Shown here piece by piece: positions 1-36,565 of a stretch of 39,764 nt of DNA (positions are counted from its first letter, which is position 1; every line of letters starts with the position of its first letter). The translations under genes and the position numbers were made by a program. The notes below the pieces were generated by a model. That model saw only the letters and a list, made by a program, of their open reading frames with translations, was not told where the DNA came from and made no database searches. The stretch is from the NCBI GenBank assembly GCA_004114245.1, contig QZWS01000021.1:1-39764 (forward strand), given 5' to 3'. The DNA comes from Zoopage sp. CT-All. Lineage: Eukaryota; Zoopagomycota; Zoopagomycetes; Zoopagales; Zoopagaceae.

Positions 1-354
1 GGTGTGTTGGGCTGGAAGACGCTGTCATGGGTGCTCCACAAGGTGCTCGAGCGAAGATTATATCGGAATGCCAGAGATATGCTATCATTGTTCGCGGGAT
101 ACTCACTTCTTCCTGCCCACGCTCCCGCTGAATCTGAAATCTTCCAATCTGCCATTAAAGTACTCAAGTCCACCAAAGATGGCAGAGAGCTGAATGCGGC
201 TGGCAAGGATAAGCTTGAATATCTTTTGACTGGCAAGAAGCCTAGCGAGTCTCAGATTAGCAAGGAGGATAAAGAGTCTGAGAGTGACAAGGGGCCTAGA
301 AGACGTTGGATTAGCGAGATGCTTGCCAAGCTTCCAGGTAACAAGAAGCCTTGA
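1..354 (+). CDS. 3' end of an unknown tandem-duplicated family (copy 1, cut by window edge)
   Basis: This open frame runs in from the left edge and ends at a TGA at 352-354. Its 117 visible residues match the C-terminus of the next gene: both begin GVLGW, share ERRLY, YSLLPAHA and LKST, continue with a GKKP...SQISK segment and end in KKP just before the stop. Identity looks like roughly half. This is therefore the 3' part of a tandem paralogue whose 5' part lies outside the window. I recognise no known domain. The tail is rich in Lys, Ser and Glu and looks disordered. The function is unknown. Confidence 0.7.
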   Translation, partial: GVLGWKTLSWVLHKVLERRLYRNARDMLSLFAGYSLLPAHAPAESEIFQSAIKVLKSTKDGRELNAAGKDKLEYLLTGKKPSESQISKEDKESESDKGPRRRWISEMLAKLPGNKKP

Positions 355-660
355 TGAGTGTTTCAATGCAGAGGCAGTTGGCAATGTGCAATCCACACGC
401 TTATACAGCTAGCCATCCAATAAAGCGTACTTGTTGGCGCAGAGTGTGAGAAACTGATGAACACGCCAGCCACTGTCCCTCTTTCCTTGTTGTACTGCAC
501 CAAGTTGAGTTGCCTATAACTCTGCATTGTGAGAGGCAAATGCGCATGTCAAGGCTCCTGGGGCCTGTCCCGGCTTTGCTTCCCTACAAATCCCCACCGC
601 ATCCACTGCTCTTGCCGCTTGTCCATCACTCACGAAGCTCTCAGAAATCCACTTTAAAAT

Positions 661-2273
661 ATGAAATCTCGGCTACTCCTTGTTTTGCTGCCTTTGCAGC
701 ATGTGTACCTGGCACCCGTGCAGCTGGCTACTACACCCTCACTACACTCCCTCAAGATCCCCAGGGCGTCATTATAGCCAATCTTCCCCGAGCAGATCAG
801 GCTTCATATGCTACGCTCAACCGCGCCGCCTATGAGACTGTGAAGAAACGCAGTAAAAATCTGTTTCAGATTAGGGCTCAAGATATACTCAAGGGCCTCG
901 GCCTGCCAATTTCGATTGCGACGATTGCTTCCGTATTCAATCAAAAGAGGGGGACTTCAGTCTATGAGCAATCCACTTCTATTAGTGATATTATCAAAGT
1001 CATTGGCCCTGATCAGCTGCAGGGCAATGCCAAGAATCTTGCAGGCCTCTTATTGACACCCGGAGGCGCCAAATCAAATATTGTTGCTGACCCACGCGGT
1101 CTCATGCTGCTGTTTCGTGAAAAGGAAAACGAAAAGCGCAAAGATAAAGACGGAGAATCAACGAGCAAAAGCAAAGAAGAGGCGTCAACGAGCGAAGATA
1201 AAGAGCTGAAAACCGAAGACGCTAGTGATCAAAGTATCGACAATCTCTTCAAAAAGAATGCCGGACAATTTAAAAGTGGCCTTGGAATTGGCAAGTCGTG
1301 GATCGACAACGGTCTTCTAGGATGGTATGCAGAAGGAATTACATCCAGGAAATATCCCATCCCCATTACATTGTCACACGATGATGTAGTTGCACTGATG
1401 TGCCACTCAATCTTCTCGTCTCCTACGCCACCAAGTTCTAAAGCCCATCTAACTGGGGACGAAATACATGGAATCGTGCAAGGAATGGCCAGATTATTAC
1501 AACAATTAGAAACCCAACCTACTCTCGAGACACTAAGCAAGCTTAAAATGGGACCACTCAAGACCGATCCAGTGGCATTTGACCTTGCAGTTGGGTTACC
1601 AGGCTGTGTTGCACAGCGTCCAAGTGTATATGCGCTATTGAATAGCCTGTCCTCGCTGATTGAAGATGAGACCTCTATGCGCGATCGAAATATGTCCACC
1701 CCCCGCAATATAATCGTCCATGGATTTGCATTTCAAGTAGGCATGGACGTTGAGGATATGTTTTGGTTGATGTGCAAAAAAGGAGAAGGTGCAGCACCAT
1801 TCGCGCCCTTTGTAGGCGCAGTCGCTCTTATGTGTAGAAACACACGTGAGGATAACGGAAACAGCGTTTGCTCAAAGTCGAGATATTATCTAGATACTCC
1901 AGGAAACGGTGTGCTGGGCTGGGGCACGCAATCATGGGTGCTCCGCAAAATATTCGAGCGGAGATTATATTCAAATGCCAACTGGATGCTATCCGTGCTC
2001 AAGAAATACTCGCTACTTCCTGCCCACGCTCGCGCTAAATCTGGAATCTTTAAATCTGCCATGAGGCTGCTCAAGTCCACTCAAGATGGCGCGGAGTTGA
2101 ATGCATCTGGCAAGGAGAAGCTTGAAAATCTTTTGAGTGGCAAGAAGCCTAACAAGTCTCAGATCAGCAAGGGGCCTGGAGAACTTGAGAGCGGCAAGGA
2201 ACGTAAAGGATATTCAATCAGGAAGATGGTTGATAAGTTTTTGAGTAATATTTCGACTGACAAGAAGCCTTGA
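661..2273 (+). CDS. Unknown lineage-specific protein, probably secreted (copy 2 of tandem family)
   Basis: A long frame is open from about 510 to the stop at 2271-2273. The first in-frame ATG is at 540, but the 540-760 stretch reads like random Pro/Ser-rich sequence. A better model starts at the ATG at 661, which has A at -3. It reads a signal-peptide-like start (MKSRLLLVLLPLQH) in another frame and joins the main frame through a 62-nt GT-AG intron at 703-764, giving about 516 residues. The body has a charged low-complexity stretch (about nt 1110-1230, Lys/Glu/Ser rich), then a Cys-containing globular-looking region, then a tail matching copy 1 upstream. I recognise no catalytic motif or domain. 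If the 540 start is right the protein has 577 residues and no clear signal peptide. Confidence 0.6.
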
Positions 2274-18349: not shown

Positions 18350-19483
18350 ATGTCCATCCTGCGTACCTCTATCGCTCACTCGACGCTCGCCACCGCACAG
18401 CTACGCGCCTTCTCGACTAGGGAAATAGTGTACGCGGCGCGTGGGAACCCTTCCGATGTACTGGCTGTGTGCTCTCGCGCGTTGCCAGACCCGGTTCCAA
18501 CTGCCGACCAAATCCTCATCCGCTTTCTCGCCGCCCCTGTCAACCCGTCAGACATCAACCAAGTCCAGGGCGTGTACGCCGTCAAGGGGCGTGCGGGAGA
18601 GGACGGATTTGCCGTTGGTGGGAATGAGGGCGTGGCGGAGATCGTCGCTGTCGGGGACGCCGTTGATCAAGCCACGACCGGACTTGTCGTCGGGGACTGG
18701 GTGCTTCCTGCGTCCCCTGCCTTTGGTACCTGGAGAACGTACGCCGCGGTTAGCCCGGCCACTGTGGCGCGTGTTGACCGCACCCGACTCACTGTTCAGC
18801 AGGCAGCCACTCTCGCGGTCAACCCAACCACTGCCTACCGCATGCTTCGTGATTTTGTTTCCCTCGAGCCCGGTGACTGGGTCGCACAGAATGCCGCGAA
18901 TAGCTCCGTTGGGCTTGCTGTCATCCAAATGGCGCGTGCCATGGGGCTCAAGACGGTCAACATTGTTCGCGATCGTCCGGATTTTGATGTGCTTGAGAAA
19001 AGGCTTGTCAGTCTTGGTGCCGACAAAGTCGTGCGTGACACTGACCTGCAACTTGATGACACCAGGAAATTCTTCTTCGAAATCGCGCTCCCGAAACTTG
19101 GATTGAATGCGGTAGGTGGTCGCACCACTACAGACCTGTCTCGGCTCCTTGCGCACTCTGCAACCCTCGTTACCTATGGCGGAATGTCTAAGCAGCCTCT
19201 GACCCTCTCCATTGCGGACCTCATCTTTCGAGATATCCGTGCGGTGGGATACTGGCAGAGTAGATGGATGCTGAATGCCACAGCGGAAGCCAGGCGCGCC
19301 ATGTTTGAGGACTTGACGCGTATGTACGCGCAGAAGCAACTCCAGGAGCCAGAAATGGAAAAAGTCTACTGGGCCAAGGACGCTGTCTCGGATGAAGAGG
19401 CAACGACGACGGTGAGGCAGGCTGTTGAGCGAGCCATGGGTGGATACAAGTCCACCAAAGTGTTGCTGCATATGGAGGCATAG
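18350..19483 (+). CDS. ETR1: Mitochondrial enoyl-[ACP]/trans-2-enoyl-CoA reductase (MECR/Etr1)
   Basis: A single exon encodes 377 residues. The first 22 residues are Ser/Ala/Arg rich and end RAFSTRE, a plausible presequence and cleavage site. The zinc-less medium-chain reductase fold follows: APVNPSDINQVQGVY with the family's active-site Tyr (Y76), GGNEGVAEIV, LPASPAFGTWRTYA, the cofactor-binding helix AANSSVGLAVIQMARAMG, and GGMSKQPLTLSIADLIFRD. The enzyme carries out the last reduction of mitochondrial type II fatty acid synthesis with NADPH and so supports octanoate supply for lipoate. The gene diverges from CAP2 and converges on the phosphodiesterase, with 311 bp between stops. Confidence 0.93.
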   Translation: MSILRTSIAHSTLATAQLRAFSTREIVYAARGNPSDVLAVCSRALPDPVPTADQILIRFLAAPVNPSDINQVQGVYAVKGRAGEDGFAVGGNEGVAEIVAVGDAVDQATTGLVVGDWVLPASPAFGTWRTYAAVSPATVARVDRTRLTVQQAATLAVNPTTAYRMLRDFVSLEPGDWVAQNAANSSVGLAVIQMARAMGLKTVNIVRDRPDFDVLEKRLVSLGADKVVRDTDLQLDDTRKFFFEIALPKLGLNAVGGRTTTDLSRLLAHSATLVTYGGMSKQPLTLSIADLIFRDIRAVGYWQSRWMLNATAEARRAMFEDLTRMYAQKQLQEPEMEKVYWAKDAVSDEEATTTVRQAVERAMGGYKSTKVLLHMEA

Positions 19484-20799: not shown

Positions 20800-23476
20800 A
20801 TGCTTCTACGCCGCCTGTTCCCAGGTTTGACTCCCTCCGTTGCGCGAGTGGTGTTTAGCTGACTGGGCGAATAGCAGCGCTTTTTGTTTTCGCGCCGTTG
20901 TTAGTGGCCGCTGCTCAGCCGGACGGAGATGCGGCGCTGACCAGGGACAGCGCCGAGGCCGAGGTGATTGCCGAGTCCGATGCACCGCCCTCGGCGGACG
21001 CATCCTCCAAGGAATCACACGCTCCCGGTTCAAATGCATCCAACGGTGTGTTTTTATGTATGTCACTGTTCTAATGTGGCGATAAGATTTGTATCGACGC
21101 GCTCGAGTCCTTCTGGACTCGTTACCGGCTGGCGATGTGGGCTTCATTCCGCCAGTGGACTCCCCCGTCGACACTCCAGAGGCATCCACTGGGCGTGCAT
21201 CCAGCAATGGCCATAATCCGCCCTTTCAGAGGGGCCCGCCAGGGTCATACACCGACAGGTTTATCTCCCGTGTTGCCGCAACGCTGCAGCACATTGTCTA
21301 CGGATTGGATGGCGCCGCTCCCTTTGGCCTTGGCTTCATGCGCAACCACTACTCCTCGTTTCGACGGCCAGAAGAGGTTTCATCCTCTCTCGCCGAGGCC
21401 ATTGGAATGCTTCAGCAGTCCGCCGATAACGAGGACAATCCCGACGCGCTGCACACCCTCGCGGATATATATTTTCACGGCACCTACAATCATCCGCGTA
21501 ACTTCTCCGCTGCATTTCATTATTACTCGCGTCTATCGACTCTCACCGGTAACGCGACAGCGCAGCACCACCTCGGCGTATTCTATTCCACCGGTCTGGG
21601 CGGTGTGCTGCGGGATCCCGCTCTTGCACTGCTGCACCACACATTCGCTGCTGTCGGCGGGAACCCTGCGTCAGAAATGATTCTCGGGTACAAGTATCTA
21701 TACGGCATTGGAGCAACCAAGTCATGCGAGGAGTCCGCATGGTACTACCGCCAGGTTGCGGATCGTGGCATGCGCTTGTATTTTGCCGGCCCCCCGGGCG
21801 GAAGAGACCTGCCCAAGCCACCCGTGCTGCTCTCCGATGAAGTCGGCGGCGTCTACGGTTATGACACTGAGCCCGATATCGTACTCGAGGACCTGCTGGA
21901 CTATTTCCGCATCAGCGCAAACCGGGGCGAGTATCACGCCAATCTCGTGCTCGGTCAGATATATTTTCTCGGAACCACCGCCATCCGGCGCGATATCCGA
22001 CGCGCGCGCGATCATTTCTTGGAGGTCGTTCGAAACACCTACAACCACGATGGCACCGTCAAGGGCGATGGTACCCGCGACCTGGCCGTGCTGCGCCGCA
22101 CCATGTCGGATCCGCACGAGATCGAGGCCGCCGGAAAGGCAGCGGCGTACCTAGGACGCATATACTGGCGCGGCGAAGGCGCCATCCACCAAGACAATTC
22201 CACCGCTCGTCGATGGTTCCTGCGTGCCGCCGAGCTCGGCATTGCTGATGGATTCAACGGCCTGGGGGAGATGTATCTCGCAGGCGCCAACGGCGTCAAA
22301 GACCTTGCCAAGGCCGAGCATTTCTTCTACAAGGCAGCAGAGGCAAAGAACGTTGATGCCCAAGCCAATTTAGGCATGCTCTACTACGACCAGAGGAAAG
22401 ACATCAAGGCGCTGAATTACTTTGCCATGGCTGGGGATAAGCACGTCGTGTCGACGTACTACCTTGGTGAGATCTACAACGAGGGCGTGACCATCACCCC
22501 ATCCTGTCCTGTGGCATTGACGGTAGCCCATCTCTCTGCCTTTATGTCGTGCTAATCACGCCTAAAGCACTTCAAGTCTGTTTCAGAGAAGGTGGACTGG
22601 GAGTACTCGCCGATCCCTCGTGCACTCGCTGCCTACCGTCGTGGAGACTTTGAGTCCGCACAGCTGTACTACCTTATTGCCGCAGAGATGGGCTACGCGT
22701 CTGCGCAAGCTAACCTTGCATGGTTGCTCGAGCAAACCCAGCCACTTGGCCTACCCACCGCCATTATAGCCGACAGCAATAGCAACAGCACCGATGGCCT
22801 TGCTCTTACATACTGGATCCGCGCCGGGAATCAAGGCAACGGCGAGGCGCGTATCAAGGCCGGGGACTACTTTTATTACGGCCGCGGCACACCGCGAGAC
22901 CTGGTCAAGGCCGCGGAGATGTACGAGACTGCAGCTGTCATCGATCGCAATTCCCTGGCTCGTTGGAATCTCGCATGGATGTTTGAGCAAGGTCTGGGCG
23001 TGGTCCGCGATATTCCCATGGCGAAGCACTGGTACGATACTGCGCTGGAAGTCAACCCCGATGCGTTCATACCCGTCATGCTGGCTCTAATCAAGTTGGT
23101 CGCGCTGTATGCCTGGGATGTGATGACACTGCAAGAAGTTGCGAACCCAAGGTTCATTCACGAAGGCCTGGCCGGAATGCTGCAGCCCCGTCGTGCTCGT
23201 GCAGAGGACCACGGTGTAAGTCCTGACCAAGATGGATGGGATATCGGCAAAAATGCCGAAAATTTGCGGCGTTGGAAGCGGCAATCTATTGCCTCGGAAG
23301 CAGATGAATCAAGCGAGGCTGCCGATGAGGTAGCGGGTGATGAGGAGGAAGGTGCTAGAGGCGTACCCGATGGCATTGTTATACTTGGTCTTGCGCTGGT
23401 GGTGGCATATATGGTGTATGTGCGACAATTTCGGTTGCAAGCAGATCAGCAAGAAGGCCTGAATGCTCGTGAGTGA
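20800..23476 (+). CDS. HRD3: ERAD adaptor Hrd3/SEL1L, Sel1-repeat membrane protein
   Basis: Four exons: 20800-20824, 20875-21045, 21087-22522 and 22568-23476, with introns of 50, 41 and 45 nt. The product has 846 residues. The first two exons together make a signal peptide (MLLRRLFP joined to AALFVFAPLLVAAAQ). An acidic/Ser-rich segment follows, then a long array of Sel1-type helical repeats, for example TAQHHLGVFYSTGLGG, AAYLGRIYWRGEGA and ARWNLAWMFEQGLGVV. One hydrophobic helix near the C-terminus (GIVILGLALVVAYMVYV) anchors it. Hrd3/SEL1L holds ERAD substrates in the ER lumen and regulates the Hrd1 ubiquitin ligase. The order of signal peptide, Sel1 repeats and C-terminal membrane helix is the family's. 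Confidence 0.92.
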
Positions 23477-23932
23477 AACATTCACTCAGGTTAAAATGTA
23501 CAATTGTCGCAGCCCATGAGTGCATTTTTATTGTGTTGCGTTCCGATGGTGGATTGCTAATGCAATTGTCAAGTCTATGCCATACTATTATATGAGGTAA
23601 GTCCCAGATTAGTAGTGCCTTCTTATTTACCAGGCATACATGTGAATTCTTGCCTTTCTCAGTGGCAATCTGCTCAATCATGCACACATATATATTATAC
23701 GCAGTGCATGTTGTCCTGAGCCAGTCTCTGTCGTCTCGCAGAATCTGGGCATGACGACAGAAATAGATCCTGGTGTGGAAACACTTGTTCCAAAAATAGA
23801 ATGGAAGATTCGCCGCCACCCATACAAAAGCCGCGCATCCATTGGTCGCTCCTTCCTCACACCTCCTCACCACTCGCTCGCAAGCATCTTCGCTTCTTCT
23901 CCCGCTCTTCTGCACATCTTTGCATATACACC
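23477..23932. other. Intergenic, promoter of tyrosine-rich secreted protein
   Basis: No gene is visible in these 456 bp. From about 23800 the sense strand is C/T rich, a pattern seen in promoters and 5' UTRs of strongly expressed fungal genes, running up to the ATG at 23933. Confidence 0.4.
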
Positions 23933-24748
23933 ATGCGTTCATTCTCCGCCCTGATCGTGCTCGCTGCTGCTGCGTTCGCCGCCGCTGCGCCCAGCGACTC
24001 TTACACTCCTGCCAAGACCACCGAATACTCATCCACTGCGTCGTCGTATACCCCGCCCAAGGATACGTATAAGACCAAGGATACGTACACTCCGTCCAAG
24101 GATACATATACGACCAAGGATACGTATACTCCGCCCAAGGATACATACACTCCGCCCAAGGAGACGTACACTGCCAAGAGTACATACACCCCGCCGAAGG
24201 AGACGTACACCGTCAAGGATACATACACTCCGCCCAAGGAAACGTACACTGCCAAGAGTACATACACCCCGCCCAAGGAGACGTACACCTCCTACACTGC
24301 TCCGACCACATATTACAGTGACTCAAAGTCATACGGTGATAACTACAGCAATGGGTACAGCTCCTATTCCGCGCCTACGAATAGCTACGGATCCAGCAGC
24401 TACTCATCGTATTCCGCGCCCAAGAATAGCTACGATTCCGGCAGCTACTCATCGTATTCCGCACCCAAGAATTACGGATCCAGCAGCTACTCGTCGTATT
24501 CCGCGCCCAAGAGTTACGAATCCAGCAGCTATTCCTCCTACTCTGCACCCAAGAATAACTACGGTTATCTGCAGCGCCGTGCACCCGAGCCAAGCTACTC
24601 TAATAGCTACTATGGCAATGACCATTATGGAAACAGCTACGGTAATGGCCATTATGGAAACAGCTATGGTAATGGCCACTACGGAAATGGCTATGGAAAC
24701 AGCTATTCTGACAGCTACGGCTATTCGCCCAGGAGGAGCGGCTATTGA
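23933..24748 (+). CDS. Tyrosine-rich repetitive secreted protein
   Basis: A single exon encodes 271 residues. An N-terminal signal peptide (about residues 1-19, MRSFSALIVLAAAAFAAAA) precedes three repeat blocks. Residues 43-119 are 6-7-residue units of the form KDTYTPP/KETYTA. Residues 143-209 are SSYSAPKN-type units. Residues 229-261 are GNSYGNGHYG units. About fifty of 271 residues are Tyr and I see no Cys. A dibasic LQRRAPEP site (about 213-220) could be cut by a Kex2-type protease between blocks two and three. The protein ends YSPRRSGY. The Lys-Thr-Tyr-Pro repeat style recalls mussel adhesive proteins and some fungal wall or spore-coat proteins, but I recognise no family. A structural wall, coat or adhesive role is inference. 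Confidence 0.85.
   Translation: MRSFSALIVLAAAAFAAAAPSDSYTPAKTTEYSSTASSYTPPKDTYKTKDTYTPSKDTYTTKDTYTPPKDTYTPPKETYTAKSTYTPPKETYTVKDTYTPPKETYTAKSTYTPPKETYTSYTAPTTYYSDSKSYGDNYSNGYSSYSAPTNSYGSSSYSSYSAPKNSYDSGSYSSYSAPKNYGSSSYSSYSAPKSYESSSYSSYSAPKNNYGYLQRRAPEPSYSNSYYGNDHYGNSYGNGHYGNSYGNGHYGNGYGNSYSDSYGYSPRRSGY
24059..24289 (+). repeat. Coding tandem repeat, TYTPPK units
   Basis: About six 39-nt units (two 6-7-codon half-units each) encode the first repeat block. The copies are near identical at DNA level, so copy number is likely to vary between strains. Confidence 0.85.
24359..24559 (+). repeat. Coding tandem repeat, SSYSSYSAPK units
   Basis: Five imperfect copies encode Tyr/Ser/Ala-Pro-Lys units of about 14 residues, the second repeat block of the secreted protein. 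Confidence 0.8.
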
Positions 24749-26849: not shown

Positions 26850-28010
26850 CTACTTATGCATCCCCGCCGCATCGCCCTCGGCAGTCTCTACGCGCCTCTT
26901 CTTTCCACCGATGGCACCCGACAACCACCTCCCGCCGGGGCCCCGTTCCTTGGGCATCAAGGGCCCGGGGTCAGGTCGATCCTCTGGCTGCACAAACGTT
27001 TGCCATTGGTAGCGCGAACACGCCCTCGCACCGGGAAGCTCCTGTATCAGCCAGGCCACGGTGGGATGCGAGAATCCAAAGTAGTCGGGGCCAGAGACAC
27101 TCGCCTGACCGGGGTCCTTGCCGCGCAGAATCTGTGCCTGGCGCATGGCGAGCACCCAGGCACCGGTGGGCGACTGGGCAACGAGCTTGCGCCCGGGCTC
27201 ATCCTCCGGCTCGATGGTGAACAGGGGCGGTCCACTGGGATTATCCTGATCACGCTCGATCCTCGCAGTCATGGTAGTGTATCGATCGGGGTTGAGCAGC
27301 GACTGGTACGGCCTCTTGATCTCGAAGCCCTCGGGCCAGATATATCTCTCATTGTGCCACCAGTCGGGCTCGCTGACCACACACCCAAGGTTGGTAACGG
27401 TGATGATGCCGACCTTGATCGGCAGCACGAAAGCGTTTGTGGTGGGGTCGCGCATAATGGGGACGGTGCGTTGGGGGAGCTGGCGGGGTTCGGTGAAGAG
27501 GGCATTTTTTCTAGCGTTGGAGTGTCCGCCACGGTTTGCGCCGCCGCCGGAGCCGGAGCGAGCAATGGGGAACAGTGCAGTGGTGGCGGAAGGGTGGGTG
27601 GCGCCAGCGGATGATAGGGCGGTAGCGGAAGTTGGGCCAGCATAGACAACGAGCTGGGCGACGGGGGCTGGGAGCGGCGGCATGACAACGTCCCGAACAT
27701 AGTCTGACATCTTTTTCGATATCGTTGGGATGGCTGCCATGTCTGTGTCGTCTGTGGGAACATTGCCCTCGGAGGCAGCAGCGGTTGTGGCAGAAGAGGC
27801 CTCCCCATTGAACTCGGTCTGCTTAAATACCGCGGCAAATCGCGACGACGCATCGCATCGAATATCTAACCAGGAGATGCGGTCAGCGATAGGAGAGGGG
27901 ACAAGGGCCGCACCCATGACGGCATCGTGATCATCGTCGTCATCAAGCAGCTCGCTCTCCTCGCCTGCACGCATCACCGCTGCGATGTCTGGACGCGCGG
28001 AGCCCAGCAT
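26850..28010 (-). CDS. FYRN/FYRC domain chromatin-associated protein
   Basis: The main exon is open from about 28109, but the first in-frame ATG is at 28010, giving 386 residues; a stop lies just upstream of 28109 next to a TAG that could be a splice acceptor, so a short 5' exon is possible. A Ser/Ala/Thr-rich half leads to the FYRN part (LPIKVGIITVTNLGCVV, YIWPEGFEIKRPYQSLLNP) and the FYRC part (PLFTIEPEDEPG, SPTGAWVLAM, SGPDYFGFSHPTVAWLIQEL). The C-terminus is basic (GGKKRRVET) and may be a nuclear signal. FYR domains occur in KMT2/Trithorax, KDM5-like and TBRG1 proteins; no SET or JmjC domain is seen here, so a TBRG1-like chromatin subunit is the closest description. The partner complex is unknown. 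Confidence 0.85.
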   Translation of the reverse strand: MLGSARPDIAAVMRAGEESELLDDDDDHDAVMGAALVPSPIADRISWLDIRCDASSRFAAVFKQTEFNGEASSATTAAASEGNVPTDDTDMAAIPTISKKMSDYVRDVVMPPLPAPVAQLVVYAGPTSATALSSAGATHPSATTALFPIARSGSGGGANRGGHSNARKNALFTEPRQLPQRTVPIMRDPTTNAFVLPIKVGIITVTNLGCVVSEPDWWHNERYIWPEGFEIKRPYQSLLNPDRYTTMTARIERDQDNPSGPPLFTIEPEDEPGRKLVAQSPTGAWVLAMRQAQILRGKDPGQASVSGPDYFGFSHPTVAWLIQELPGARACSRYQWQTFVQPEDRPDPGPLMPKERGPGGRWLSGAIGGKKRRVETAEGDAAGMHK

Positions 28011-33993: not shown

Positions 33994-34756
33994 CATGTAA
34001 TCAGGGCTGCTTAAATAGGTGTTCAGCTATTTTAATAATTAAGGCAGGCCCTGATACAGACTTTTTTACTGTGCAAAAGGGTTCATGGTCACCACCAGCA
34101 GGTGCATTTGCTCATGGAACCATGCACATTGCACCATCATCATCCACATTAACGCACACCTCATATGTCTTGCAATCCACCCGCACTATGACTCCTATTG
34201 AGGACATTGGCTGTGGTTGGCACATGAGCTGGCCGTGTGTTTTCCCAGCAGATGTATAGAAATATCGTCCATAAAATTGGTCAAAGCATTTTTTGCCAAG
34301 CTTAAACAGAGGCTTGAAATTTGGCACAGCAGATGATGGGAGATGGGTGTGCATGGCAGGCAGAGAAGAAGCCTGGGCCGTGTTACTGGTTCCTGTTGGA
34401 AAGGACTATACTTGCAGTGTACAAGGGGTGGGTTGTATTGGCTACTAGAAAAGAAGAGAATTCCTTAACTGCAAAATAACCGCCTTTACACACAGCAACA
34501 GTATCCAACAAGCACAACACACTGGCCTGAGCTCTTGCAGGGCATGCCACCAAGAAGCTGCAGATAAATTTACTCACAAAAGCATATGTTTCACATGATC
34601 AAAGCCTGCATACCAGTCAATACATATCTTGTCCTCACAGTTATTCTGCATAGCAATACGCTCCTGTCTGGTAACTACTGGCAAATGACCCGCTCTAGTG
34701 CTTGCCCAAAGGATGCACAAAATAGGTAGAATCAGAGGGCAATCATTGCTAACCAT
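33994..34756 (-). pseudogene. Decayed coding-like fragments of unknown origin
   Basis: Several minus-strand open stretches (34756-34574, 34577-34383, 34354-34112) lie end to end, broken by stops. They include coding-looking segments such as CIDWYAGFDHVK and KKCFDQFYGRYFYTSAGK. Composition is more AT rich than the genes to the left. I cannot name the family. The most likely reading is a dead transposable element or pseudogene, and chance open frames remain possible. Confidence 0.35.
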
Positions 34757-34837
34757 GAACGGGCATTGGCTTGTTGGTGTGGTGGATGATGGGAGAAGAG
34801 CGCAAATGGAAGGCAGAGATATCCTGCGATACTAGAC

Positions 34838-35182
34838 TCATTGACCAATTTGCTGCTCTCCATTTTGGATCTGAGGTGACTTCTGGTAACCAAAAAGGTA
34901 CGATGCGGGTGACTTCTCCCAATAGCTATTGCGGCCTGACCACGAGTTCATGCGATTTGGAGGACCGACATCATTTCCTCCCTTAACCCCTAGAGGCTGC
35001 AGGCTGCTCTCATGATCTTCAGGTAAATCGCTCCACTGTAGAAACGGGCCAAGCTCCCTGCCATATGTGTATCTGGGGCGCTCTATGTTGAAGCCTGATT
35101 GGTATCGTGCAGATGCATTGATGCGAATCGCCAATACTGAGGCGAGCATGCAAAAGAAGGCAGCGGTATGGATTTTATGCAT
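34838..35182 (-). CDS. Small putative secreted protein
   Basis: This frame encodes 114 residues from an ATG at 35182. It starts with a signal-peptide-like segment (MHKIHTAAFFCMLASVLA, then IRINASA). The mature part is hydrophilic, rich in Gly, Ser, Pro and Tyr, with no Cys after the signal peptide. I recognise no domain. It sits in an AT-rich repeat island next to decayed fragments, a setting where fungi often keep secreted effector-like genes, but it could also be a chance frame. No intron is needed. Confidence 0.45.
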   Translation of the reverse strand: MHKIHTAAFFCMLASVLAIRINASARYQSGFNIERPRYTYGRELGPFLQWSDLPEDHESSLQPLGVKGGNDVGPPNRMNSWSGRNSYWEKSPASYLFGYQKSPQIQNGEQQIGQ

Positions 35183-35995
35183 TGATGGCTGCGTATTTGT
35201 GAGCAGGGTTTCTGTCCGTGAAACCGGATGGAGGTCAACGACGGGTCAAAAAAACCAGGTGGCTCCGCACGTGGTGACTACATAATCAGACATATACTTG
35301 GCCTTGGTCAAACTAGCTTGCATTACACTCACAATATCATATAGTGCATAATGTTTTATCACTCTCTCCAAAAATGTTACTACGTGAATTATTATCCATA
35401 GCCTTCAACTAATCCCATACTATATTGCCTCAAACTCAGGCAATTGCACTATATTGAATTTAAATTTATTTGGTATCCTTTGTGGTGTAGTGCAGAGTAA
35501 GTCTTGTGGAACTTAATGTATCAGAAAAGAGACTGCTACTTTTCTACTCCTGCACCACATCCTTCACCTTTTGGCAGAAACACGGGGCTACTAAGATCTA
35601 GGATAAAGGGATGCTGATATGATGATTACCTACTACTTACATTCAAGGTCTTGAGCTTAAGTATGCTAAATATCTTTACAAGGACTAAAAAGATTAAAAG
35701 ACAATCAGGATCATATCCCCCATTATAGAAACATAGGTGTAGTGATAGGCTAATACTATTTGACTACACACATTGCCCAGTCTGGCATGCATACCAGCCA
35801 TGCAGTGCATATTTTGCTTGAATTTGTTTTTGTTGTAACTCAGATGATTGGATTGGGTTGGTGACCAACTCGGCCATGAAGTAGTCCAATGAAGTAAATT
35901 TTCATAGCAGTCTACATAACACATCCCTGGCTATCACGTTTTTATCCTCTGAACTCTGGCACAATACAAGCACGAGGTGGCTTCACCCAACCACC
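35183..35995. other. AT-rich repeat-island spacer
   Basis: I see no gene in these 813 bp. The sequence is AT rich. An 18-bp segment at 35504-35521 recurs in inverted orientation at 39378-39395, so part of this spacer belongs to a dispersed repeat. Confidence 0.4.
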
Positions 35996-36565
35996 ATGCA
36001 AACCCACCGCCCTTTTATGATTTACGCAAGCCTCGCCATTCTCGCCACGATTTTCTGCTCGAGCGCACTAGCGTCCAAAGCAGCATACGAAACCCGCAGG
36101 ACTCCTCCTGCGTGGCCATCGACCCCGTCAGCGAACTCACCCAGTATTAACTCCAAGGCGTTAAACTACTACGAGCGGGCCGCCAATAACCCCTTCTTTC
36201 AATATCTTGAACATAGCGATAGACTGCGCGTTTTGAAGGCTGCCTCGTTTGCAGACTATGGCCAAGATGATGACGCGAAACACTCCGGCTCGGAGTCTGG
36301 AAGCCCGGCCATACTTACCGCTCTGCGTGGTGGTCGAAATGAGGCGCTCCTCGGCGATGGTCGTAGTAGAGCAAGCATGCCGCCACAGCATTCAATCGCT
36401 AGCGCAACCGACTGCGCTCTTAAGCAGCTCTCGCTACTCCCCTCCCGGCATTCAGACAGGTCTGCTTCTAGAAGGTATCTGACTGCTCCAGAGGCGGGCA
36501 CGACAGGGTATAGAAAACGCCGATATAGCAGCTCACCTCGCCGCTCGGCGTACCCCAAGATGTAG
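35996..36565 (+). CDS. Putative secreted protein with basic C-terminus
   Basis: A single exon from an ATG in good context (CACCATG) encodes 189 residues. A signal peptide spans about residues 1-27 (IYASLAILATIFCSSALAS). The mature part has a helical NYYERAANNPFFQYLEH segment, a Ser/Arg-rich middle and a strongly basic end with dibasic sites (YRKRRYSSSPRRSAYPKM), which could be Kex2-processed. The SPRRSxY end resembles that of the Tyr-rich secreted protein at 23933. No known family is recognised. GC content is higher than in the surrounding AT-rich DNA, which supports a real gene. It converges on HSCB, 70 bp between stops. Confidence 0.65.
   Translation: MQTHRPFMIYASLAILATIFCSSALASKAAYETRRTPPAWPSTPSANSPSINSKALNYYERAANNPFFQYLEHSDRLRVLKAASFADYGQDDDAKHSGSESGSPAILTALRGGRNEALLGDGRSRASMPPQHSIASATDCALKQLSLLPSRHSDRSASRRYLTAPEAGTTGYRKRRYSSSPRRSAYPKM

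Follow-up and report, generated by a model that had tools for sequence, protein, structure and literature searches.

We found that a contig of Zoopage sp. CT-All carries a gene, in our view a convincing one, for a tyrosine-rich repeat protein that is predicted to be secreted. The contig (39,764 nucleotides) was analyzed whole and is referred to as the window; the assembly that contains it is 8.62 Mb in 419 contigs. The open reading frame (ORF; 23933-24748, + strand) begins with an ATG at 23933, ends with a TGA at 24746-24748, and encodes 271 amino acids, including 49 Tyr (18%), 55 Ser, 34 Thr, 24 Pro and 19 Lys, with no Cys and no Trp. On rereading, the ORF agreed in position, strand, frame and length with the initial annotation, and counting confirmed its description of a protein with about fifty Tyr and without Cys. 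The signal peptide that it had described is also there, as a signal-like start judged by eye.

The gene product may be a secreted structural precursor, probably a disordered one. The reading that we favor, at somewhat less than an even chance, is that it would be a structural protein, processed by Kex2 and hardened by tyrosinases, in the wall of a spore or in an adhesive layer.

The gene and its three repeat blocks

The first 19 residues have Arg at position 2, a hydrophobic core and an Ala-rich end. Judged by eye, a signal peptide would be cut near residue 19, leaving about 252 of the 271 amino acids. There is a second in-frame ATG at 23801, 44 codons upstream of 23933. We prefer the start at 23933 because a start at 23801 would bury the signal peptide. 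The stretch between the two ATGs is probably a 5' UTR. GPI-anchored wall proteins have a hydrophobic C-terminal tail, and the PIR and hydrophobin wall proteins have a conserved pattern of Cys. The C-terminal end of this protein (SDSYGYSPRRSGY) has no hydrophobic tail, and with no Cys among its 271 residues the PIR or hydrophobin pattern is absent.

Three repeat blocks, each rich in Tyr, make up most of the protein (Table 1). The initial annotation had named one repeat type for each (TYTPPK, SSYSAPK and GNGHYG). All three blocks were found, and there are five exact copies of TYTPPK (plus one TYTPSK) and four of SSYSAPK. GNGHYG is exact only twice; the third unit is GNDHYG. At the DNA level, the distance from one repeat start to the next is 39 or 21 nt for block 1, 42-45 nt for block 2, and 27 nt for block 3. 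Tyr residues in block 1 are spaced by 6 or 7 residues in 13 of 15 gaps. Block 3 contains 12 Tyr, 11 Gly and 3 His, with no Lys or Arg. AlphaFold, run on the single sequence, gave a mean pLDDT of 41.9, and 246 of the 271 residues were below 50. That is, the prediction is as expected of a disordered chain, which is weak evidence for disorder.

Table 1. Positions of features in the window and, in the last row, of a pair of tyrosinase genes elsewhere in the genome.
Feature	Position	Strand	Basis
tRNA gene, 61.3 bits	14779-14860	+	Rfam, ARAGORN
Two consecutive Sel1-repeat ORFs	21338-23476	+	Pfam
Pyrimidine-rich stretch, upstream ATG to preferred start	23801..23932	+	sequence, inference
Signal-peptide-like start, residues 1-19 (MRSFSALIVLAAAAFAAAA)	23933..23989	+	sequence, judged by eye
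Block 1, residues 20-120, built largely of xTYTPPK and xTYTxK; contains 15 Tyr, 30 Thr, 14 Lys	23990..24292	+	sequence, repeat analysis
Block 2, residues 121-214, SYSSYSAP(K) units every 14-15 residues; 21 Tyr, 33 Ser, 5 Lys	24293..24574	+	sequence, repeat analysis
First dibasic site, RR 215-216, then AP-EP 217-220; candidate signals for a cut by Kex2 and for trimming of the Ste13 kind	24575..24592	+	sequence
Block 3, residues 221-266, YGN(G/D)HYGN(S/G) units; 46 residues	24593..24730	+	sequence, repeat analysis
Second dibasic site, RR 267-268, followed by a 3-residue SGY tail	24731..24736	+	sequence
Two convergent, secreted-looking tyrosinase genes	C281:24021-24554 and 27048-27557; locus L017 2797-4695 and 4918-6738	+ and -	PF00264

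Maintenance of the coding sequence and search for relatives

We compared the repeat units codon by codon in four sets, and re-placed the same differences at random inside the units in 500 simulations. The five hexads had 17 silent and 18 replacing differences, a silent share that was reached in 11 of the 500 simulations. For the six heptads (25 silent, 13 replacing), the observed share was reached in 6 of 500. It was never reached for the block-2 units (13 silent, 0 replacing) or for the three block-3 units (10 silent, 4 replacing). Pooled over the four sets, there were 65 silent versus 35 replacing codon differences. The simulation is rough, as pairs of repeats are not independent of each other and the block-2 pattern caught three of the four SYSSYSAP copies. 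Silent differences were in excess in all four sets, and we therefore infer that this is a translated peptide with maintained repeats.

The length of the ORF alone is modest evidence. In 300 dinucleotide shuffles of the 1.8 kb around the gene, the longest ORF starting with ATG averaged 92 amino acids and never reached 271, but one shuffle gave an ORF of 264, the maximum. The repeat structure together with the pattern of silent differences is stronger evidence than the length. The ORF was also the richest in Tyr (15.9%, counted from the upstream ATG; the next had 7.5%) among 285 ORFs of at least 100 amino acids in 146,117 bases, a non-random sample made up of the window and 13 further loci picked mainly for tyrosinase or oxidase genes. 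All 19 Lys codons are AAG. The GC3 of the gene (0.65) falls inside the range of 12 other genes in the window (0.57-0.77), and so we make no claim about expression from codon bias.

A search with the full-length protein, in which the 7993 candidates with the most shared words were scored with a cut at E 1e-5, found no convincing homologue at that value or better. The sole match (E 9.1e-6) was a protein of 164 amino acids encoded on a contig of 817 bases; it has a lipobox-like start, 9 Cys and TYTPPK-like letters, and we rejected it as compositional. Pfam-A had no match above the curated cut-off (the only one listed was PF17505, E 0.48, whose 10.9 bits fell short of the required 27), and the PDB search gave no relative. 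A clear match to a characterized cell-wall family had been named at the outset as something that would count against a new material; neither Pfam, the PDB nor the protein search gave one. Likewise, a search for paralogues with the same blocks, suggested in the initial annotation, yielded no second copy in the 8.62-Mb assembly. Residues 101-271, searched at E up to 10, matched the gene itself, two more places at its own locus, and weakly a place on contig C338 (E 5.1).

Possible processing, candidate cross-linking enzymes and possible roles

Following the signal peptide there are four Arg, and all of them are in the two RR pairs that flank block 3. Not one of the 19 Lys sits in a KK, KR or RK pair. 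When four Arg were placed at random, two pairs formed in 31 of 200,000 trials; this test was chosen after the pattern had been noticed. A possible Kex2 site between two of the blocks had been proposed before. It corresponds to the first RR, which lies between blocks 2 and 3 and stands as a candidate site. The second RR and the bracketing of block 3 by the two pairs are additions to that description. In the passages of PMC6339444 that deal with KEX2-processed repeat proteins (KEPs), XA or XP dipeptides after a KEX2 site are a trimming signal for Ste13, and the AP-EP that follows the first RR fits this signal. A profile search placed one kexin-type P-domain in the genome, on contig C188, where a membrane segment and a piece resembling subtilisin were recognized by eye. 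The two predicted cuts would yield a 197-residue chain (chain A, residues 20-216) with all 19 Lys, and a 52-residue chain (chain B, residues 217-268) with all three His. Those His are in block 3, and residues 20-216 contain none.

It is possible that the shorter chain is itself the product. In that case, a chain of 46-52 residues, rich in Tyr, Gly, Asn and His, would be cut from the precursor and secreted to act as an antimicrobial or signal peptide of the Gly-Tyr-rich kind, and the earlier repeats would serve as a pro-region. The position of block 3 between two RR pairs, the AP-EP after the first pair, and the kexin-like gene all agree with this, and KEPs are known from some Zoopagomycota, according to the same passages (PMC6339444). 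KEPs are defined there by a signal peptide, at least three internal repeats, and KEX2 sites between the repeats. The Zoopage protein resembles them in its signal peptide (judged by eye), its three or more internal repeats, and the XP dipeptides that follow a KEX2-type site. However, RR occurs only at block edges (215-216 and 267-268), and there is no KR, KK or RK between individual repeats. In addition, silent differences are in excess in blocks 1 and 2 as well, and for that reason those blocks seem to be kept for their own sequence. We consider a peptide precursor unlikely, while still giving it a real chance.

A smaller chance goes to an adhesin or effector at the interface with a host or prey, without cross-links and with O-mannosylation as the main modification. 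This would suit the content of Ser and Thr (89 of the 271 residues), and the large family of unknown proteins in the genome (the ORF at 540-2273 gave 54 match rows) would suit a parasite. The regular spacing of Tyr in block 1 argues against such a role, as does finding neither a paralogue nor a diversifying family.

We searched the whole assembly for enzymes that could cross-link Tyr. The tyrosinase profile PF00264 gave 15 match rows, which we merged into 11 places by joining neighboring pieces on the same contig; none of the 11 is in the window. Both copper-site motifs, WHR and HxxxH, are kept in nine. The second gene on contig C281 is without HxxxH, and the partial match on C7 reads WQR. These two gaps and the lack of a tyrosinase in the window count against our favored reading. 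A signal-like hydrophobic start was seen by eye in 10 of the 11 and was not seen in C337; for C43 and C7 it begins at an internal Met. Three of the tyrosinases, C317 and both C281 genes, have a hydrophobic C-terminal tail. The second C281 tyrosinase is 6.8% Tyr. Multicopper oxidases are encoded at three places.

For one tyrosinase, the best matches were metagenome proteins (up to 65%), and the first named ones were from Syncephalis, Quaeritorhiza, Entomophthora and Basidiobolus. We made a tree of 31 rows, with 10 of the 11 Zoopage places (the partial C7 was omitted) and 21 of 49 matches; one further chosen match, without WHR, was left out. The Zoopage copies were scattered over several branches and only 5 of 28 inner branches were well supported, so this tree does not decide how old the set is or on what substrate it acts.

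Fungal tyrosinases often serve melanin. According to PMC11105155, the species-specific part of the predicted secretome of Entomophthora muscae is also enriched in tyrosinase. For these two reasons, the number of tyrosinases need not concern the Tyr-rich protein. The tyrosinases might make wall melanin from small phenols, with the protein acting as a scaffold that only nucleates or binds it. The 11 places, mostly secreted-looking, would agree with that. In contrast, nothing that we found ties the protein to melanin, and the pairing of Lys with Tyr in block 1 would exceed the needs of binding. We regard a melanin scaffold as improbable.

The close spacing of the Tyr residues could also serve a dityrosine network made by a heme peroxidase and H2O2. 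We think this very improbable, as there was no match to the heme peroxidase family PF00141 in the genome, although the search was exon by exon in an assembly that may be incomplete and can miss genes (its controls were positive in 5 of 14 genomes). This family includes cytochrome c peroxidase, and its absence, if real, is unusual for a fungus. With 11 tyrosinase places and no PF00141 match, DOPA and quinone chemistry looks better supplied than dityrosine chemistry of the PF00141 type. Multicopper oxidases might still make dityrosine. Two other peroxidase families (PF03098 and PF01328) and the flagellar family PF06098 had no matches in the genome either, and their controls were silent too, so that these blanks carry no weight. 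PF13640 matched at four places; the best of them, which is the one that was read, looks like a Tpa1/Ofd1-type protein, and we claim no secretory prolyl hydroxylase from this family.

That the ORF is unexpressed, or its repeats an accident, is hardly credible: the missing homologue at E 1e-5 and the one shuffle in 300 with an ORF nearly as long (264 amino acids) would allow it, whereas the silent-site excess, the signal-like start and the placement of the RR pairs speak against it.

The scheme that we envisage for a Kex2-processed, tyrosinase-hardened structural protein is as follows. The precursor would enter the secretory pathway, and Kex2 would cut it behind residues 216 and 268, where the RR pairs end, to give chains A and B. 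Outside the cell, secreted tyrosinases would turn Tyr into DOPA and dopaquinone, and the quinones would couple to Lys and His of both chains and to wall polymers. The outcome would be a tanned, insoluble layer, most likely in the wall of a spore, either resting or sexual; the alternative is a contact adhesive. At the level of sequence, this scheme is supported by the signal-like start, the three Tyr-rich blocks that have been kept, the RR pairs, the kexin-like gene, the tyrosinases and the multicopper oxidases. A more specific version, possible but doubtful, is an independently evolved material of two enzyme-tanned chains, one of Lys/Pro/Tyr type and one of Gly/His/Tyr type, made 1:1 and sclerotized by many secreted tyrosinases into wall or glue. 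If so, it would parallel fluke egg shells and mussel plaques.

Known systems and neighboring genes

Mussel foot proteins (of the mefp-1 type) and trematode eggshell proteins have short Tyr/Pro/Lys or Gly/Tyr/His repeats and are hardened by tyrosinase-type enzymes. The Zoopage protein is like them in its short Tyr repeats and in the tyrosinase hardening that we propose as a candidate; no homology was found. The initial annotation had compared its style to mussel adhesive or silk-type proteins. The mussel half of that comparison holds for the repeats, with tandem Tyr/Pro/Lys units (TYTPPK five times) in a protein whose secretion was judged by eye. For the silk half, nothing came up that would support it separately.

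The same annotation had called the material undescribed. As a style it is not, since Tyr-rich secreted proteins appear in accounts of oomycete oospore walls (in parts of PMC5999078 and PMC5298957) and of a diatom (in parts of PMC4220933). The M96 family of P. infestans is secreted and mating-induced, with a median mature size of 271 amino acids, and its members have a His-rich N-terminal third followed by sequence that is about 50 mole-percent Gly, Ser and Tyr, as given in the M96 passages of PMC5999078. A secreted tyrosinase and prolyl hydroxylases are also mating-induced there (PMC5999078). PoStr of Pythium oligandrum is reported to be essential for oospore walls (Grenville-Briggs et al. 2013, as cited in PMC5999078 and PMC5298957). 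Like M96 proteins as so described, the Zoopage protein has a signal peptide, a similar size, and much Tyr and Ser along with Gly and His. Unlike them, it has Thr/Pro/Lys blocks first, His in block 3 only (its N-terminal third is not His-rich), RR sites, no second copy found in the assembly and a fungal host. That we found neither a homologue (at E 1e-5 or better) in which the Tyr content or the RR sites could be seen to be kept nor a paralogue, whereas M96 is a family, is a point against reading it as a wall protein. We consider M96 the closest precedent, alike by description and perhaps in mode of working, and claim no kinship; the protein search, with 7993 candidates scored and the cut at E 1e-5, brought up no member of M96 or PoStr. 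Because the protein has neither the His-rich third of M96, which was compared by description, nor the sites between repeats of KEPs, we assign it to neither.

In the diatom Amphora, AC3362 and other Tyr-rich proteins are secreted and were picked for a composition like that of mussel foot proteins (PMC4220933). AC3362 is termed a cell wall protein; both it and AC714 have Lys-Gly repeats, and evidence for the absence of DOPA is cited in the same passages (PMC4220933). These proteins are secreted, as the Zoopage protein is predicted to be, and differ in their Lys-Gly repeats and in coming from an unrelated organism. The diatom case shows that a mussel-like composition can occur without DOPA being found.

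Among the open-licence literature matches listed, none dealt with a wall protein from a true fungus that is secreted and Tyr-rich, and 'tyrosine-rich' together with 'early-diverging fungi' had no match in that literature. The usual account of fungal walls names polysaccharide and mannoprotein, together with melanin. If our favored reading is true, protein sclerotization becomes a testable route of wall hardening in early-diverging fungi, tyrosinases gain a possible substrate beyond melanin precursors, and the protein offers a compact natural design for tyrosinase-cured materials. In a fungus, it may play the part that toughening proteins have in oospore walls, in the egg shells of flukes and in the glue of mussels.

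Several other features of the window were noted. An ETR1-like protein (18350-19483) matched a metagenome protein best (57%, covering 75% of the query); among named proteins, one from Thamnocephalis ranked first (47%). In a tree of 34 rows (the ETR1-like protein with 33 of the 120 listed), it joined two metagenome proteins at 100/98, outside a well-supported group of Thamnocephalis and Syncephalis; its deeper placement was weak, and the bootstrap had not settled. Together with the tyrosinase matches, these results fit an early-diverging fungus, probably one of the Zoopagomycota. The ORF at 540-2273 (+) encodes 577 amino acids with no Pfam match (E up to 1e-5). The match rows of its family lie on 35 contigs of the assembly and include an adjoining partial copy at 1-345 (+) and copies on the tyrosinase contigs C281 and C299. 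Two small ORFs, at 34838-35182 (-) and 35996-36565 (+), are in or beside an AT-richer stretch (34001-36000). Both have signal-like starts and no Pfam match and are effector-like in style, as judged from sequence; no further copy of the second turned up in the genome.

The tRNA gene was the only RNA gene that Rfam and ARAGORN reported in the window. ARAGORN gave it a four-base anticodon and no amino acid, perhaps due to an intron. The two Sel1-repeat ORFs are probably a single gene split by an intron, presumably one that is HRD3/SEL1L-like.
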